33,579 nucleotides of DNA, from the NCBI GenBank assembly GCA_002724585.1, contig PBPE01000046.1, positions 5,163 through 38,741 of the forward strand, given 5' to 3'. The position numbers were made by a program, and so were the translations under genes. Positions 23,846-33,539 of the stretch are shown in pieces (position 1 is the first letter of the stretch; each line of letters opens with the position of its first letter). Under the pieces are notes generated by a model. The model was not told the DNA's origin. It worked only from the letters and a program-made list of their open reading frames with translations, and made no database searches. Source of the stretch: Dehalococcoidia bacterium (lineage in GTDB: Bacteria; Chloroflexota; Dehalococcoidia; Lucifugimonadales; UBA3495).

Positions 23846-24517
23846 TTACAACTCGTATTCCTTAACATCGTCCGTTATTATCAAATGGGCCAAAGTAATA
23901 GATTGCACTTCGTCGACATCCCAGCCCGGAGCTATTTCCTTCAAAACTAAACCTTCATGTGTTGGCTCCATGACAGCAACGTCTGTAACTATCAGTGACA
24001 CACATTCTTTACCAGTAATTGGAAACGTGCACTCATCCACTATTTTTGAGTTATTGGTACGGTCGGTATGTTCCATAGCAACTATTACCTGCTTTGCCCC
24101 TGCAGCCAAGTCCATCGCACCGCCTATATTACCCACACCTCTTTCTGGCAACATCCAATTAGCCAAGTCTCCTTTTGCAGAAACCTGATGCGCTCCAAGA
24201 ACGGTCACATCGACGTGGCCTCCGCGTATCATGGCAAATCCATCAACTGAGCTGAAGAAAGCCATCCCAGGCACAGTGGCCAAGAATTGACCTCCAGCAT
24301 TTATCAAGTCAATATCTTGACTATCCTCATCAGCCAATGGGCCGCAATTAAGAACACCACTCTCACTGTGATAAAAGACCATGCTTTCATCTGACACAAA
24401 AGTCGACACGAGGGTAGGTATACCTATTCCCAAATTTACATATCCACCATCTGGTAATTCTTTCGCCACTCTCATGGCAACTACTTCTCTTGGCAGCCTT
24501 TCTTTATCTTCCAGCAT
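23846..24517 (-). CDS. CoA-transferase family 1, beta subunit (3-oxoacid type, catalytic Glu present)
   Basis: The protein of 223 residues matches subunit B of 3-oxoacid/3-oxoadipate CoA-transferases (ScoB/PcaJ/AtoA). It shows YVNLGIGIPTLV (about 26-37), the active-site FYHSESGVL with Glu52, which forms the glutamyl-CoA intermediate, DLINAGGQFLATVPG, FAMIRGGHVDVTVLGAHQVS, GDLANWMLPE and GAMDLAAGAKQVIV. The ATG at 24517 follows a weak GAGTGG. It is the last of three CoA-transferase genes on this strand, 22 nt after a beta*-alpha fusion gene. The likely partner is the alpha part of that fusion or the standalone alpha gene. The acid it activates is not known; the family moves CoA between succinyl- or acetyl-CoA and a 3-oxoacid. 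Confidence 0.93.
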   Translation of the reverse strand: MLEDKERLPREVVAMRVAKELPDGGYVNLGIGIPTLVSTFVSDESMVFYHSESGVLNCGPLADEDSQDIDLINAGGQFLATVPGMAFFSSVDGFAMIRGGHVDVTVLGAHQVSAKGDLANWMLPERGVGNIGGAMDLAAGAKQVIVAMEHTDRTNNSKIVDECTFPITGKECVSLIVTDVAVMEPTHEGLVLKEIAPGWDVDEVQSITLAHLIITDDVKEYEL

Positions 24518-24539
24518 AAACCACTCTTAATCCTGAAAA

Positions 24540-25919
24540 TTATTCGTATGGGGAGAAATCTTTTGGTCTGATAACTATCCGATCAATATAAATGCCTGGC
24601 GTGACAATTTCATCAGGCTCCAAAGTGCCAACTTCCACTACTTCATCGACTTCGACAATAGTTATATCGGCAGCAGGGGCCATAACAGGATTAAAGTTCC
24701 TCGATGTACCCTTGTATATTACATTGCCTAATTTGTCCGCCTTATAACCTCTTATAATACAAAAATCGGCTCTCAAGCCCTTTTCCAAAATATATTCCTT
24801 ACCTTTGATAATCCTAGATTGTTTACCTTCTGCAATTAATGTTCCCACTCCGGTAGGAGTGAAGAACGCGGATATACCTGCCCCCCCAGAACGCAGTCGC
24901 TCAGCAAGAGTTCCTTGAGGAACGAGCTCTAACTCAACATCACCCCTCCGGTAGGCCAATTCAAAAGCGGTAGGACGAGAAGCAGATGGCGACACTGGAT
25001 ACGACGCCACAGCTTTAGACACCTGCCCGTTGTCTATCAATAATGTATGGTCAATTGCTTGTTTGCCCGCTGGTGTTCCAAAATTTACTACTCTTGCTAT
25101 TCCGGCTGTGTTACCTATGATAGTAAGTTCCTTCGCCCCATGGTCACGTAAAGAAACCAGCAAATAATGAGGCATTCCACCTGGACCTGCAAAGCCATCG
25201 ATCATAACCGTAGCGCCATCAGGCAAATCTGACATCGCTGCAACACCGGTATCATATAATTTAGATAGCTCTGTTTCTTCTTCTTTATCCACTTCGCCAT
25301 CTGTAATTGATTGTGATGATTCAATGTGTATGCTACCGTCGGCAGTCAAGTCGTCAATATCCCAGCCATCAACTAATTCTTTTAAAACGAATCCGTTGTC
25401 ACCTATTTCCAAAACAGCTATATCGGTAATGATCATATCTACGCAACCAATACCATCAGGATTCACGGTACAATTACTCTTTAAGACACTCTCCCCCATA
25501 CTATTAAAGTGTTTCGCTACTGCTATCACTCTCCTGGGATTATCGAGTAAATCCACGGACCACCCGGGAGCTAGCAACCCTGCCGTGCTCAGAGTTGATA
25601 GCGAAACAATATCTCCTGATGCCGTTATCTCTCCCGCCTCAACAATCGCGATATCGACGTGCCCTCCGTGCATGATCGAAGCAACATCGCTAACACCATG
25701 AAAAGAACTTCCTTGTTTATCCTTAGAAGACTTTGAAGCGCCGTGTGTTGAGATCAATCCTCCATACCCATCTATTATCCACGCGTCGGGCGCACTAGAT
25801 AAACGTTTCCCAATTACATCCGCCATTCCATGCCCAACGGCAACAACATTACCAGGTCTTATTTCCCGGGCTACTTTAAATGCCAATTCATCTAAACTTA
25901 GGACCTTTTTATCAAGCAT
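24540..25919 (-). CDS. CoA-transferase fusion: degenerate beta domain plus alpha domain
   Basis: This 459-residue protein joins two family 1 CoA-transferase domains in the order beta-alpha. Residues 1-205 resemble subunit B (MHGGHVDIAIVEAGEITASG, then SVDLLDNPRRVIAVAKHF, IITDIAVLEI), but the active-site segment reads WIIDGYGGLIST: Tyr52 stands where the standalone beta has Glu52, and the region after it is shorter. A charged linker, about 205-222, leads to an alpha domain with MIDGFAGPGGMP, LAERLRSGGAGISAFFTPTG, ADFCIIRGYKADKLGNVIYKG and EIVTPGIYIDRIV, all typical of subunit A. The alpha domain could pair with the complete beta encoded next. The beta-like part should not be catalytic by the usual mechanism and may be structural or pair with the standalone alpha. 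ATG 25919 lies 20 nt after the upstream alpha gene. Confidence 0.85.
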   Translation of the reverse strand: MLDKKVLSLDELAFKVAREIRPGNVVAVGHGMADVIGKRLSSAPDAWIIDGYGGLISTHGASKSSKDKQGSSFHGVSDVASIMHGGHVDIAIVEAGEITASGDIVSLSTLSTAGLLAPGWSVDLLDNPRRVIAVAKHFNSMGESVLKSNCTVNPDGIGCVDMIITDIAVLEIGDNGFVLKELVDGWDIDDLTADGSIHIESSQSITDGEVDKEEETELSKLYDTGVAAMSDLPDGATVMIDGFAGPGGMPHYLLVSLRDHGAKELTIIGNTAGIARVVNFGTPAGKQAIDHTLLIDNGQVSKAVASYPVSPSASRPTAFELAYRRGDVELELVPQGTLAERLRSGGAGISAFFTPTGVGTLIAEGKQSRIIKGKEYILEKGLRADFCIIRGYKADKLGNVIYKGTSRNFNPVMAPAADITIVEVDEVVEVGTLEPDEIVTPGIYIDRIVIRPKDFSPYE

Positions 25920-25939
25920 ATGCTGGTACCACCATCTCT

Positions 25940-26626
25940 TTACGATTGTCCAGACTGGATTAACCGATTCACGAATATACCAGGAGTGATGATTAATTCT
26001 GGATCTAAATCTCCAGCGTCGTAAATATCAGTTACTTCAGCAATCGTTATATCAGCTGCCATGGCCATGACTGGCCCCCAATTTCTTTCCATTCCCTTGT
26101 ATATGAGATTACCCAAGTTATCGGACTGTTGCGCTCTTACCAAAGCAAAGTCACCTCTCAATGCCTCAAGGAAAAGACATTGTCTACCATCAATCTCTTG
26201 AGTCTCGTATCTAGTAGACCAAGAAGTACCGATTCCAACCGGCGTAAACACACCGCCTAGACCGGCCCCACCCGCACGAAGTTTTTCGGATAATAATCCT
26301 TGAGGTATCACTTCTATTGACAAATTGCCAGAACTCCATTGAGATTCAATCAAACTGCCAGTATTCTGATAGAACGGAAAAGCGGTGATAAGTCGAGAAA
26401 TCTGACCCCTCTTAAGCAAAGGGTCTAAGGCAGTCAATGGAAACGCACCAAATTCACTGCAAGGAGAAAATACGCACACCAATTCAGATATATCTTTATC
26501 TGCGAGGGCGTTGATTAACGTCTTTGGTATGCCATATTGTGAGATACCTCCGATCAACAAAGTAGCACCACTAAATACATCCGCTAAAGCATTCTCAGAC
26601 GAGGCATAAACTTTCCTAGCAGCCAT
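25940..26626 (-). CDS. CoA-transferase family 1, alpha subunit
   Basis: This 228-residue protein matches subunit A of 3-oxoacid-type CoA-transferases: GATLLIGGISQYGIPKTLI with the glycine-rich GG-xxxGIP motif near 20-37, QGLLSEKLRAGGAGLGGVFT (about 108-127) followed by PVGIGTSWSTRYETQEI, LRGDFALVRAQQSDNLGNLI, and ELIITPGIFVNRLI at the end. The ATG at 26626 follows GGAGG at 5 nt. It heads the three-gene CoA-transferase run, separated from groEL upstream by the groEL terminator. Its beta partner is uncertain: the adjacent beta-like domain (in the fusion) lacks the catalytic Glu, while the complete beta is two genes on. Confidence 0.9.
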   Translation of the reverse strand: MAARKVYASSENALADVFSGATLLIGGISQYGIPKTLINALADKDISELVCVFSPCSEFGAFPLTALDPLLKRGQISRLITAFPFYQNTGSLIESQWSSGNLSIEVIPQGLLSEKLRAGGAGLGGVFTPVGIGTSWSTRYETQEIDGRQCLFLEALRGDFALVRAQQSDNLGNLIYKGMERNWGPVMAMAADITIAEVTDIYDAGDLDPELIITPGIFVNRLIQSGQS

Positions 26627-26766: not shown

Positions 26767-28398
<1,632 letters not shown>

Positions 28399-28421
28399 TT
28401 ATACTAATCTACTTGATAATA

Positions 28422-28721
28422 TTATGATATTTTCGCTAAAACATCGCTTTCGCGCAGTATGAGGTACTCGTCGTCGCCGTCTTTGTATTCAGTACCAGCG
28501 TATTTAGAGTAGATTACTTTATCACCTGCGCTTAATTCCATGGCAACACGAGTTCCATCATCAGTGACTCTGCCAGGACCCACCGCCACGACTTCTCCCT
28601 CCTGTGGCTTTTCTTTCGCCGTATCTGGAAGGAATATTCCGCCTTTGGTTGTTGACTCTTGTTCGCTAGGTTTGACAATAACTCTCTCACCCAACGGTTG
28701 AAGCGTTACTTTGGTTACCAC
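28422..28721 (-). CDS. groES: 10-kDa co-chaperonin GroES
   Basis: GroES caps the GroEL ring. The 99-residue protein shows [16 protein letters not shown] at 7-22, the mobile loop [19 protein letters not shown] (24-42), [10 protein letters not shown] (42-51), and [17 protein letters not shown] (64-80), all standard. The start is GTG 28721 with GGAGG 5 nt upstream. A promoter with TTGACA and TACGAT lies at 28812-28840, giving a leader of roughly 80-85 nt. No full CIRCE operator (the HrcA site) is seen; a single TTAGCAC half lies just after the -10 box. Confidence 0.96.
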
Positions 28722-28902: not shown

Positions 28903-29679
28903 ATGAATAACAACAAAGCGTACGTGACTATCAAAGATAAAATCGCAACTGTAGTGCTAAACAATCCTTCTGAAATGAATATTATAGACGAAGACATGGC
29001 GAGTAAACTCAACGGGATTTTGGAGCAATTACATGAAGATGAGAGTATCTCCGTCATGGTTATTTCTGCTACAGGATCTGTCTTCTCCTCAGGACGAACA
29101 TCAATTAGTCCCGAACGTTCCCTTGAAGAACGCAGACGAATATTATCTGAATTGAATATTTCTAAGAATTTAACGAACCTTCGCATCCCTACCATATCTA
29201 GCATCAACGGCGATGCTATGGAACATGGCTTGGAAGTAGCTCTCTGCACAGATATACGATTGTGCACCACCTCGGCGCGATTCCGATGCAATGATCTCTT
29301 TAATGGATCGGATTTTCCGATAGACGGCGGTACCCAGAGATTGCCGCGAGCTATTGGCGCCTCTTGGGCCATGGATATGCTGCTTACAGGTCGTACGGTA
29401 TCTTCCCAAGAAGCCTTATTAATCGGATTGGTAAACAGAGTAGTAACAGATGATAGCCTTGAGAAGACCACTGGTGAACTAGCGGCATTAATTGCTTCTG
29501 GCGCTCCTGTTGCAAATCAATATGCTAAAGAAGCCGTTTACTGCGGCATGGAAATGAGTCTCACGGAAGGATTACGACTAGAAACTGATCTGAATGTCAT
29601 ACTACAAAGCACATATGATCGATCAGAAGGAATCGAGTCTTTTCTTCAAAAGCGCTCTCCCAAATTCGAAGGGAGATAA
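28903..29679 (+). CDS. Enoyl-CoA hydratase/isomerase (crotonase) family protein with altered active-site acids
   Basis: The protein (258 residues) has the crotonase fold signs: VMVISATGSVFSSGRT (about 51-66), INGDAMEHGLEVALCTDIRL (101-120) and DGGTQRLPRAIG (141-152). The two catalytic glutamates of enoyl-CoA hydratase are changed: the usual PE is ND (Asp131) and the one in MEM-LTG is MDMLLTG (Asp158). The oxyanion hole glycine region is kept. It may act as an isomerase, hydrolase or other crotonase, or act slowly as a hydratase. It is divergent from groES, with the ATG at 28903 and only a weak AGAG upstream. It heads a + strand run with a PHP protein, another crotonase and an acyl-CoA synthetase. 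Confidence 0.82.
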   Translation: MNNNKAYVTIKDKIATVVLNNPSEMNIIDEDMASKLNGILEQLHEDESISVMVISATGSVFSSGRTSISPERSLEERRRILSELNISKNLTNLRIPTISSINGDAMEHGLEVALCTDIRLCTTSARFRCNDLFNGSDFPIDGGTQRLPRAIGASWAMDMLLTGRTVSSQEALLIGLVNRVVTDDSLEKTTGELAALIASGAPVANQYAKEAVYCGMEMSLTEGLRLETDLNVILQSTYDRSEGIESFLQKRSPKFEGR

Positions 29680-29701
29680 TCACACAAAAGGACACCACCA
29701 A

Positions 29702-30247
29702 GTGCAATTAAAACTAGATCTACACACTCACATTTGGGAAGCATTTAACTTCCAACCAGTATCACTGCAGATCGTGGAGCAGGTCATAGCAGAAGTAAAA
29801 TCAAAAGGCATAGACGGAATCGCTATAACCGATCACCATAACAAGGACTGGGCTTTCCAGTTTTGCAAAATAGCCGAAGAACATTTTCCCGGCCAGATCA
29901 TAGTAATACCTGGTTGGGAGATAGAAGTTAGACCTCCGGACAGTCCTTTCGACGAATATCAAGTGACCGAATTATTTTTGGATAGCGGTGACATATTTCG
30001 CATATACTGCCACCCTGGATATTACAGTCCGAATATAATAATCGAGGAGAACATCCACGCTATAGAAATAGATAACTACATCCATAACTGGCACATTAGA
30101 AAACAACAGGTTCAAAAGGTCGCAGACGAATACAATCTAATGACCGTGCAAGTCAGCGACGCGCACAATATAGAAAACGTAGGCCTAAGGTACACTGAAC
30201 TCAATCTTGACGAACTGTACCGACGTGCTTCAGGGACTCCTTTCTAA
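29702..30247 (+). CDS. PHP-domain metal-dependent phosphoesterase-like protein
   Basis: This 181-residue protein has the PHP metal motifs in order: DLHTH near 6-10, ITDHHN near 44-49, GWEIEV with the bridging Glu near 72-77, IYCHPGY near 103-109 and VSDAHN near 156-161. PHP proteins are usually phosphoesterases (histidinol phosphatase, 3',5'-nucleoside bisphosphate phosphatase, DNA polymerase domains); this is a compact stand-alone one with no insertion domain. The start is GTG 29702 with AAGGA about 10 nt upstream; a longer frame reaches back into the crotonase gene but has no site and no homology-like content. Its stop TAA overlaps the ATG of the next crotonase gene by one base, so the genes are translationally coupled. 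Its substrate in this acyl-CoA context is unknown. Confidence 0.8.
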   Translation: MQLKLDLHTHIWEAFNFQPVSLQIVEQVIAEVKSKGIDGIAITDHHNKDWAFQFCKIAEEHFPGQIIVIPGWEIEVRPPDSPFDEYQVTELFLDSGDIFRIYCHPGYYSPNIIIEENIHAIEIDNYIHNWHIRKQQVQKVADEYNLMTVQVSDAHNIENVGLRYTELNLDELYRRASGTPF

Positions 30248-30945
30248 TGAATTCTGCATACTCCACCATACGCGTAACAAAAAATAACAATACCGCTCGC
30301 ATTTCACTTAATAGACCAAAATATCTTAACGCTTATAACATTCAAATGAGGGATGAATTTTCTCAAATATTGAACCTTATGAAACACGATCCAGATATTC
30401 GTTGCGTACTAATCACCGGAGAAGGATCTGCTTTTTGTGCTGGGGCAGACTTAACTGAATTCGGTAGCGCTCCTTCCCAAACAGTTGCTCGATATGTTAG
30501 GTGGCAGAGAGATGTATGGGGGCAGATGATATCACTTCAAAAACCCATAATTGCAGCTGTTCACGGGTATTGTATCGGTTCGGGATTAGAAATAGCCCTC
30601 TTAAGTGATATCAGAATCGCAAGTGAGAACACGATTTTCGCCATGCCTGAGACACATTTAGGAATGATTCCAGCTGCAGGCGGGACACAAACTTTACCCC
30701 GCGTGTCACGAACCTCTCCCGCATTAGATATTCTGTTAACAGGGGAGAGATTGAACGCCAGCATGGCTTTATCATCAAAAATAATTTCACGAGTGGTATC
30801 GGATGACCAATTATTGCAATATGCCAATGAAATGGCTAATGAGGTCTCATGTATTTTGCCTCAAAAATCAGCCGCACTAAAATTAGCAATTGAAAACCAA
30901 GGCAGCCTTTGGCGATCTGAATCTTTTCCTTTGGAAAACACTTAG
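30247..30945 (+). CDS. Enoyl-CoA hydratase/isomerase family protein
   Basis: A second crotonase, 232 residues, slightly short at the C-terminus. It shows ISLNRPKYLNAYN (19-31), the oxyanion-hole strand AFCAGADLTEF (62-72), AVHGYCIGSGLEIALLSDIR (104-123), FAMPETHLGMIPAAGGTQTL (131-150) with the first catalytic Glu135 kept, and ALDILLTGE where Asp161 replaces the second Glu. It is therefore closer to an active hydratase or isomerase than its upstream relative. The ATG overlaps the stop of the PHP gene (TAATG). It ends 60 nt before an acyl-CoA synthetase, and together they would activate an acid and act on its CoA ester. Confidence 0.88.
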   Translation: MNSAYSTIRVTKNNNTARISLNRPKYLNAYNIQMRDEFSQILNLMKHDPDIRCVLITGEGSAFCAGADLTEFGSAPSQTVARYVRWQRDVWGQMISLQKPIIAAVHGYCIGSGLEIALLSDIRIASENTIFAMPETHLGMIPAAGGTQTLPRVSRTSPALDILLTGERLNASMALSSKIISRVVSDDQLLQYANEMANEVSCILPQKSAALKLAIENQGSLWRSESFPLENT

Positions 30946-31005
30946 GTAGTCTTGGAATATAATACAAGCTGATCAAACAGTTATGCACAACATTTTTCAC
31001 TCGGG

Positions 31006-32568
31006 GTGAAAGTCTTGAATACTTCTGAATTCCTAACCATCACAAACCTTATTGTTCCTGAAAGAACAGCTCTAATTTTCGACGATGCCAAAACAACTTT
31101 TTCAGAGCTGCAAGATCGGGTCAACATGCTAGCGAATGCTATGTCCAACATGGGAATACGTAAAGGCAGTAGAGTTGCTTTCATGCACGTAAACACTAAC
31201 CAAGCAATTGAAATATATTTCGCTACGGCTCAACTCGACGCAATTTATGTCCCAATTAATTTTCGCGCTAAAGAAGACGAGCTGCACCAGATGCTTGAAA
31301 TATCTCAACCAGATTTGTTGTTCATAGGTAATAGATATCTCCCATTAACCCACAGTCTGATTGACAGAAATACTTTGCAAAAAGATCAACTTATAACTCT
31401 CGATTTTCAAGAAACCGATACATTCCAATACTATGAGGGTATGTTAGAGGGTCAATCTAAAGACCAAATGCATTTTCCGGAAGATGATGATTCGGACACC
31501 ACAGTCATAATGTTCACCGCTGGTACCACCGGTACCCCAAAAGGCGTCATGTTAAGTCATAATAGTTTCTCGTCTTACTTGCTTTCCACAGTATCTCCAG
31601 CCGACCCAGATATAAATGAAACTAATTTGATTACGGTTCCGTTTTATCACATAGCAGGGCTACAGGCAGCACTAGCAGCGATTTACGGCGGGCGTACAAT
31701 GGCGATAATGAGGCAATTTGACCCTCTAGATTGGCTCAGAACCGCAGAGGATCATAAAGCAAACAGAGCGATGCTCGTGCCAACAATGCTAAAACGGATC
31801 ATCGAACACCCAAATTTTGGGGAGTTCGATTTATCAAACCTGAGCGTCATTACATATGGAGCAGCACCAATGCCGTTAGATGTCATCAAGAGATCAATCA
31901 CAAATTTTCCTAACACGATGTTCATAAACGCTTTTGGACAGACTGAAACAGCATCTACAATTACCATGTTGCCCCCAGAAGATCACATATTGGAGGGATC
32001 TCCGTCTGACATAGAAAGAAAGTTGAAGCGACTCACATCGATTGGCAAACCATTGGAAGATGTAGATATATTGATAGTGTCAGAAGCAGGGGAACCAGTC
32101 AACACAGGAGAAATTGGCGAAATAGTGGCTCGTGGAGATAGATTAATGACTGGATATTGGAATCAAGAATCAGCCACATCAGAAACAATAAAATCCGGAT
32201 GGCTTTACACCGGAGACTTAGCTTATCAAGACGAAGACGGTTACATTTTTCTAGCCGGAAGAGCAAAAGATTTCATTAAACGAGGAGGAGAAATGATATC
32301 TCCCGAAGAGGTTGAACAAGTTCTTAGGTCCCATCCCCAAGTGTCTGATGCAGCTATCATAGGGACCCCAGACGATGAATGGGGAGAAGAAGTAGTCGCT
32401 GTCGTCGTTGCTGCGACCACGGCACCATCTGAAGATAGTCTAATAGAACATTGTGGAGAACATCTAGCAAGTTATAAGAAACCAAAATATGTATTCTTCC
32501 TCGACGAACTCCCTCGAAACGCTATGGGTAAAGTGCTCAAAAGAGATCTTAGAGAGTTATACAGTTAG
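31006..32568 (+). CDS. Acyl-CoA synthetase (AMP-forming)
   Basis: This 520-residue ANL-superfamily enzyme activates a carboxylic acid to its CoA thioester through an acyl-adenylate. Motifs in order: MFTAGTTGTPKGVMLSH, the phosphate loop, at 169-185; INAFGQTETASTITM near 308-322; YTGDLAYQDEDGYIFLAGRA near 405-424, followed by KDFIKRGGEMISPEEVE; and the C-terminal catalytic lysine in RNAMGKVLKRDL (Lys509). It resembles the FadD/long-to-medium-chain or 4-coumarate-CoA ligase-like group; substrate is not assigned. The start is GTG 31006, though TTG 31015 has a better-spaced GGGGTG. It follows the second crotonase by 60 nt and precedes a ketopantoate-reductase family gene by 38 nt. Confidence 0.92.
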   Translation: MKVLNTSEFLTITNLIVPERTALIFDDAKTTFSELQDRVNMLANAMSNMGIRKGSRVAFMHVNTNQAIEIYFATAQLDAIYVPINFRAKEDELHQMLEISQPDLLFIGNRYLPLTHSLIDRNTLQKDQLITLDFQETDTFQYYEGMLEGQSKDQMHFPEDDDSDTTVIMFTAGTTGTPKGVMLSHNSFSSYLLSTVSPADPDINETNLITVPFYHIAGLQAALAAIYGGRTMAIMRQFDPLDWLRTAEDHKANRAMLVPTMLKRIIEHPNFGEFDLSNLSVITYGAAPMPLDVIKRSITNFPNTMFINAFGQTETASTITMLPPEDHILEGSPSDIERKLKRLTSIGKPLEDVDILIVSEAGEPVNTGEIGEIVARGDRLMTGYWNQESATSETIKSGWLYTGDLAYQDEDGYIFLAGRAKDFIKRGGEMISPEEVEQVLRSHPQVSDAAIIGTPDDEWGEEVVAVVVAATTAPSEDSLIEHCGEHLASYKKPKYVFFLDELPRNAMGKVLKRDLRELYS

Positions 32569-32606
32569 CATCAGTGGATAATATCAGCCTAAGGAGGCAT
32601 ACGGAC

Positions 32607-33539
32607 ATGAAAATTACAATCATGGGTACAGGCGGCGTCGGCGGTTACTTCGGAGGCCTTTTAGCTAGAGATAATCCTGACGTAACGTTCATAGCTAGAG
32701 GAGAGCATCTCGCAGCGATTCAATCAAAAGGCTTACAAGTAAACAGCCAAAATGATGGCACCTTTACTGTTTACAACGCTGCTACGGATGACCCGTCCAG
32801 TCTCCCTAAGCAAGATCTAATTTTATTCACTGTGAAAATGTTCGACAATATTTCCGCAATGGACTCAATAAAGCCTATTGTAGGCGACGATACCACGATT
32901 CTTACACTTCAGAATGGGGTAAGTAACGGATACGATCTATCGGACGTATTCGGAAGTGAACGTGTCATGATCGGCACAGCTATGCTAGAAGGACGAATAT
33001 CTGAACCCGGAGTAGTAACACAAGGAGGGCCTGGCGCAGCCCACTTCGGAGAAATGTACCGCGGCATTAGTGAAAGAGGCAAACATCTACTTTCCATTTT
33101 TCAGGCTTCCAACTGGAAAGTGGAACTCCAGGAAAACATGCTCGATACGTTGTGGAAGAAGTTTGCCTATTTATCAGCATGTGCATCCACTTGCACCGCT
33201 AGTAATTCAAGCATGGGAGAAATGCGTTCTGTCCCGGAAACCCGTGACCTAATACTCAACGCTATAGCCGAAGGATTCGAGGTCGGTAGAGCGTACGGCG
33301 CACCAATCGCAGATGACGCAATGGATTGGGCTATTTCAGCACTAGATAATTTCCCTTATTCTGGAAAATCCTCAATGGCTAAAGACTTCGCTGAAAATCG
33401 CGCAGTAGAACTTGAAGGATTAACCGGAACCGTCATAAAAATGGGGAAACGCCTAAACATCAATACCCCAATCAACGACATGTTATATGCTGTACTAAAA
33501 CCATGGGCAGAACGCATAAATCAACAAAATGGAGCTTGA
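32607..33539 (+). CDS. Ketopantoate reductase (PanE/ApbA) family protein
   Basis: The protein starts at ATG 32607 (KITIMGTGGVGGYFGGLLA), supported by AAGGAGG about 10 nt upstream; an in-frame ATG at 32574 would add 11 residues outside the domain. The NADPH-binding GTGGVGGYFG is at 8-17, LILFTVKMFD (about 71-80) and TILTLQNGVSNGYDL (about 95-109) are typical, and the family lysine and following segment appear as LWKKFAYLSACAS. Length is 310. PanE reduces 2-dehydropantoate to pantoate for coenzyme A; many close homologs reduce other 2-oxoacids. Here, in a cluster of acyl-CoA genes and without panB or panC, either role is possible, so I leave the symbol empty. The gene ends 40 nt before the window edge. 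Confidence 0.88.
   Translation: MKITIMGTGGVGGYFGGLLARDNPDVTFIARGEHLAAIQSKGLQVNSQNDGTFTVYNAATDDPSSLPKQDLILFTVKMFDNISAMDSIKPIVGDDTTILTLQNGVSNGYDLSDVFGSERVMIGTAMLEGRISEPGVVTQGGPGAAHFGEMYRGISERGKHLLSIFQASNWKVELQENMLDTLWKKFAYLSACASTCTASNSSMGEMRSVPETRDLILNAIAEGFEVGRAYGAPIADDAMDWAISALDNFPYSGKSSMAKDFAENRAVELEGLTGTVIKMGKRLNINTPINDMLYAVLKPWAERINQQNGA

Follow-up and report, generated by a model that had tools for sequence, protein, structure and literature searches.

The window analysed here, a stretch of 33,579 nucleotides from a Dehalococcoidia bacterium, carries three adjacent genes for subunits of a family I CoA-transferase. We propose that their products probably assemble into an asymmetric heterotetramer, (alpha1-beta*)(alpha2-beta), in which one site is active and the other degenerate. 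In textbooks, family I CoA-transferases are symmetric; if our reading is true, the trio is a natural asymmetric member with living intermediates. Four families of the order (f15, f10, f4 and the window's own, f1) would then form a natural series in which one enzyme half turns non-catalytic or newly purposed while it is retained. The intermediates, from f15 through f10 and f4 to f1, offer a way to ask why evolution keeps a dead half, be it for assembly, regulation or half-of-sites behaviour. In the open-access literature searched, we found no description of such a trio.

We infer that two unlike alpha-beta pairs come together as like pairs do in the usual (alpha-beta)2 heterotetramer, the interface of which was judged biologically relevant in CtfAB crystals, and that the linker between beta* and alpha2 ties these halves at a fixed stoichiometry. 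The alpha2-beta half would perform ordinary CoA transfer via anhydride and glutamyl-CoA intermediates at Glu52 of beta. The alpha1-beta* half would keep the fold and stay in the complex with its transferase site broken, most likely as a structural or regulatory pseudo-subunit.

Gene order and domains of the trio

Because the gaps between alpha1, the beta*-alpha2 fusion and beta are only 20 and 22 bp (Table 1), the three genes probably form one operon; a GGAGG ribosome-binding site lies ahead of alpha1. All three proteins matched family I CoA-transferase models of Pfam and NCBIfam. According to NCBIfam, alpha1 (E 1.5e-59) and residues 219-450 of the fusion (E 6e-75) are subunit A and beta is subunit B (E 2e-82), while residues 10-194 of the fusion matched subunit B weakly and below cut-off (E 5e-21). 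For alpha2 and beta, PF01144 and TIGR02428/TIGR02429 exceeded their cut-offs, which assigns both to the CoA_trans fold. The fusion can thus be split into 213 N-terminal residues with a weak and 245 C-terminal residues with a strong match, to subunits B and A, respectively. An earlier note, made from the sequence alone, had described an alpha, a fusion of an altered beta with a second alpha, and a complete beta; open reading frames and domain matches bear this out. As the note also held, beta* can be aligned with beta (27% identity, E 2e-24). The two alphas are 36% identical.

Table 1. Features of the trio and its conserved neighbour in the window (positions in nucleotides).
Feature	Position	Strand	Description
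alpha1	25940-26626	-	228 aa; CoA-transferase subunit A-like; fast-evolving; putative partner of beta*
beta*-alpha2 fusion	24540-25919	-	459 aa
beta* domain	25280-25919	-	fusion residues 1 to ~213; subunit B fold; Gly51 at the catalytic Glu position
alpha2 domain	24540-25279	-	fusion residues ~214-459; conserved CoA-transferase subunit A
beta	23846-24517	-	223 aa; complete subunit B; catalytic Glu52 (HSESG)
groEL	26767-28386	-	conserved same-strand neighbour on the upstream side of the trio

The fusion was modelled with AlphaFold from a 32-row alignment (pLDDT 83, pTM 0.83). In this model, residues 216-459 adopt the alpha fold (VIA-align Z about 29 to AtoD, CtfA and ScoA) and residues 7-213 the beta fold (Z 21-22 to CtfB). 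Foldseek and VIA-align matched each domain singly, and neither found a structure that beta*-alpha2 matches over its full length.

The trio resembles AtoDA, CtfAB and ScoAB (e.g. 5dbn, 9csc, 3cdk) in that alpha2 is 40-45% identical to their alphas across the entire domain, beta can be aligned from end to end and has its catalytic Glu in the matching position, and alpha precedes beta in the operon. However, those enzymes have one alpha and one beta gene, whereas the trio has two of each, the middle two fused as beta-alpha and one of the betas without its site. Mammalian SCOT, like the trio, has both domain kinds in one chain, but there alpha is followed by the beta with which it forms one active pair, and the protein is a homodimer, whereas beta* would be joined to the alpha of the other pair.

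We searched 250 genomes of the order for the fusion and found it in 46 of the 50 genomes of f1, as well as in f15 (G071, G037, G068, G070), f10 (G032, G095) and f4 (G026). The rest of the order has only a stand-alone alpha2 (52-63% identical), which beta adjoins in most loci inspected. Within f1, order and strand of the trio are the same wherever contigs are complete, and alpha1 is kept in nearly all genomes with a complete locus. Since the same trio recurs in 46 genomes of the family, it is not a chance arrangement. The search for the same gene order that the earlier note had suggested thus found it widely, and the local decay that the note allowed for is refuted by a fusion kept in 53 genomes at dN/dS ratios well below 1. 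A class-wide search with the beta* region of f15 returned mostly ordinary betas.

Two loci deviate in arrangement. In the f4 genome, alpha1 and beta*-alpha2 stand without an adjoining beta (L065, G026:C1:2136000-2154000); its best match to the beta of the window (75% identical) lies 1.6 Mb off at G026:C1:562980. This locus is a natural unlinking of the trio; that alpha1 and the fusion persist despite the distant beta speaks for the proposed assembly. In an f15 genome, a fusion with intact beta* Glu adjoins beta (L062, G071:C1:834000-852000), and alpha1 has moved by ~12 kb to the opposite strand (G071:C1:855967-856644).

Loss of the transferase site in beta*

In the alignment, Glu52 of beta stands opposite Glu46 of CtfB (9csc_B), the catalytic residue of the Thermosipho enzyme, at which the acyl anhydride and glutamyl-CoA thioester are formed. 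Within the S-E-x-G motif, this Glu is present in 50 of 50 trio betas and 19 of 19 unfused relatives. The note was right that beta* of the window lacks it, but the residue it named, Tyr52, is one position off: in a gap-free stretch of the pairwise alignment, Gly51 stands opposite Glu52, and Tyr52 opposite Ser53 of beta. No other Glu of beta* falls in the motif in this alignment, and a glutamate elsewhere in beta* that might have occupied the active site was thus not found there. Besides the Gly at the Glu position, the window's beta* has Asn28, Asn73, Gly108, Asn120 and Gly133 replaced or missing.

Over 53 beta* sequences, position 52 is D (22), E (15), A (6), N (4), H (2), T (2), G (1) or P (1), and all eight residues are represented in f1. 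Judged as an active pair, alpha1-beta* of f1 lacks both the catalytic Glu, present in nine of 46 beta*, and the invariant beta residues: N28, N73 and G108 are kept in none (Asn28 is Ala in 40), N120 is kept in one (G014), and all four residues are absent from the nine that have Glu. On the alpha side, alpha1 of f1 has lost N270, G273, F352 and F409, residues that never or hardly vary among the alphas of catalytic pairs. The tree of alpha2 and beta requires at least 16 changes at position 52 of beta*, with at least six losses of the carboxylate, and A, N, D, T and P all occur within a single genus. Because Asn28, Asn73, Gly108 and Asn120 are lost and position 52 was repeatedly changed, the alpha1-beta* transferase site is, judged by its residues, broken throughout f1, and the Gly of the window is one of many end states. 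The four f15 beta* have kept Glu, N28, N73, G108 and N120 together with most other invariant residues. Judged by these residues, the families form a graded series with both sites apparently intact in f15, partly altered sites in f10 and f4, and one broken site in f1.

The residues at position 52 also raise the question of whether the alpha1-beta* half might have gained a different activity, as a hydrolase where Asp is present or through repurposing as in IpdAB and AibAB. In CtfAB, E46S and E46A are dead enzymes, and E46D is an acyl-CoA hydrolase in which N22 positions the Asp. These laboratory mutants (E46D, 9cq2; E46S, 9cry) are altered at the same residue as beta*, but they were engineered in a symmetric enzyme, whereas the trio was altered naturally, in one half only and at further site residues. 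Asp occupies position 52 in 22 of the 46 f1 beta*, many of which have recurring Q108, Q111, H120 and D168; more generally, a carboxylate (D or E) occurs there in many f1 genomes, commonly accompanied by His120 and almost without exception by Asp168. Asp168 is found in 45 of 46 beta*, and 42 of 43 f1 alpha1 have Trp at 409 (fusion numbering). Moreover, IpdB (Gly57) and AibB (Cys56) have the same fold and, like beta*, no Glu at this position, yet IpdAB is a steroid ring hydrolase and AibAB a 3-methylglutaconyl-CoA decarboxylase. In those enzymes, however, which have one alpha-beta kind, the whole enzyme changed its chemistry, whereas the trio keeps a complete transferase pair beside the altered one. 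Their sequence similarity to alpha1-beta* is low; a PDB sequence search with the fusion listed betas of the ScoB/CtfB/AtoA type and no IpdB or AibB, and the beta* model scored Z 15 to AibB, below its score to CtfB.

Against a second activity, A, N, D, T or P within one genus and Gly in the window are not compatible with a single chemistry family-wide. Furthermore, the Asn that holds the Asp in the CtfB E46D hydrolase (N22, corresponding to N28 here) is missing in 46 of 46 beta*, and the window's beta* has neither H120 nor Q111. We therefore regard a second activity of this half as rather unlikely, though it is the strongest competitor of a pseudo-subunit. A particular version of it, in which this half would be catalytic in its own right in most f1 members, through Asp or Glu with the recurring His120, Asp168 and Gln108, so that a transferase and an acyl-CoA-processing site would share one tied complex, with the site lost again in some lineages including that of the window, seems doubtful to us. 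For the window's own protein, catalysis at the beta* site is unlikely, judging from its residues.

Selection, pairing and origin of the two halves

dN/dS was estimated for same-genus pairs by a simple method, with high dS for some pairs. The ratios were 0.10-0.46 for beta*, 0.07-0.27 for alpha1, 0.03-0.12 for alpha2 and 0.03-0.18 for beta, so alpha1 and beta* remain under purifying selection, albeit a relaxed one. In one genome (G011, L030), the alpha1 and beta* branches are extreme, with ~4.5 and 6.6 changes per column, and those of alpha2 and beta are near 0.3.

The fast evolution of alpha1 and beta*, deletions around residues 59-75 of beta* and the strong drift of both in G011, G026 and the window would fit a half on its way to loss, retained only through the fusion of beta* to an alpha2 that is needed. 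However, alpha1 is a separate gene and free to go, yet it persists in nearly all complete loci under the purifying selection described above. In addition, G54, G116 and E194 are fixed in 46 of 46 f1 beta*, and Asp168 nearly so. A half en route to loss is thus improbable.

Partial correlations of pairwise distances in a mirror-tree analysis of 45 genomes were 0.72 both for alpha1 with beta* and for alpha2 with beta. The remaining combinations gave -0.08 (beta* with alpha2), -0.13 (beta* with beta), 0.29 (alpha1 with alpha2) and 0.26 (alpha1 with beta). That beta* and alpha2 are one chain without co-variation argues that each has its partner in another chain. The correlations support, but do not prove, contact of alpha1 with beta* and of alpha2 with beta, and shared relaxation of constraint could cause part of the alpha1-beta* correlation. 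Of the three readings that the earlier note had offered, these two pairings best support the alpha-beta*-alpha-beta assembly, in which one site works and the other is dead. Its idea that two alphas of different specificity share one catalytic beta as a switchable enzyme, which the gene content of two alphas and one Glu-bearing beta would by itself suggest, is very improbable given the low correlation of alpha1 with beta and the loss in alpha1 of residues invariant in alphas of catalytic pairs.

The fused alpha2 sequences form one clade (SH-aLRT 99), sister to the order-wide two-gene alpha, and the fusion has a single origin. In the trees, beta groups with the order-wide two-gene pair, and alpha1 and beta* fall outside on long branches. 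Because alpha1 and beta* lie outside the alpha2 and beta clades, they are more likely an older paralogous pair, with the caveat of long-branch effects. A recent local duplication of alpha2-beta was considered and judged less likely, as even the slowly evolving alpha1 and beta* of f15 lie outside these clades.

Genomic neighbourhood

Directly upstream of the trio lie groES and groEL (26767-28721, - strand), which flank it in many f1 genomes and in members of f15, f10 and f4. Between groEL and alpha1, reading by eye showed a terminator-like stem with a T run behind it, and groEL is probably a transcription unit separate from the trio. A promoter shared with groESL was considered and is not proposed in view of this stem; a promoter scan performed at chance level.

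A conserved divergent set follows at 28903-33539 (+ strand), in which two genes of the enoyl-CoA hydratase type flank a PHP-domain gene and are joined by one gene each of the AMP-binding acyl-CoA synthetase type and the ketopantoate reductase type; in its listed extent, the PHP-domain open reading frame runs into the end of the first hydratase gene. By its gene content, the neighbourhood fits acyl-CoA metabolism and names no substrate. The trio belongs to marine SAR202-type bacteria, a group discussed for its CoA-transferase repertoires. These repertoires are rich and are linked to the degradation of recalcitrant marine organic matter, mainly through a different CoA-transferase family (PMC5395668). 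Apart from the trio, the window's genome encodes an ordinary alpha-beta CoA-transferase pair that belongs to another subgroup (L001, G000:C26:46400-47789) and is about 46-49% identical.
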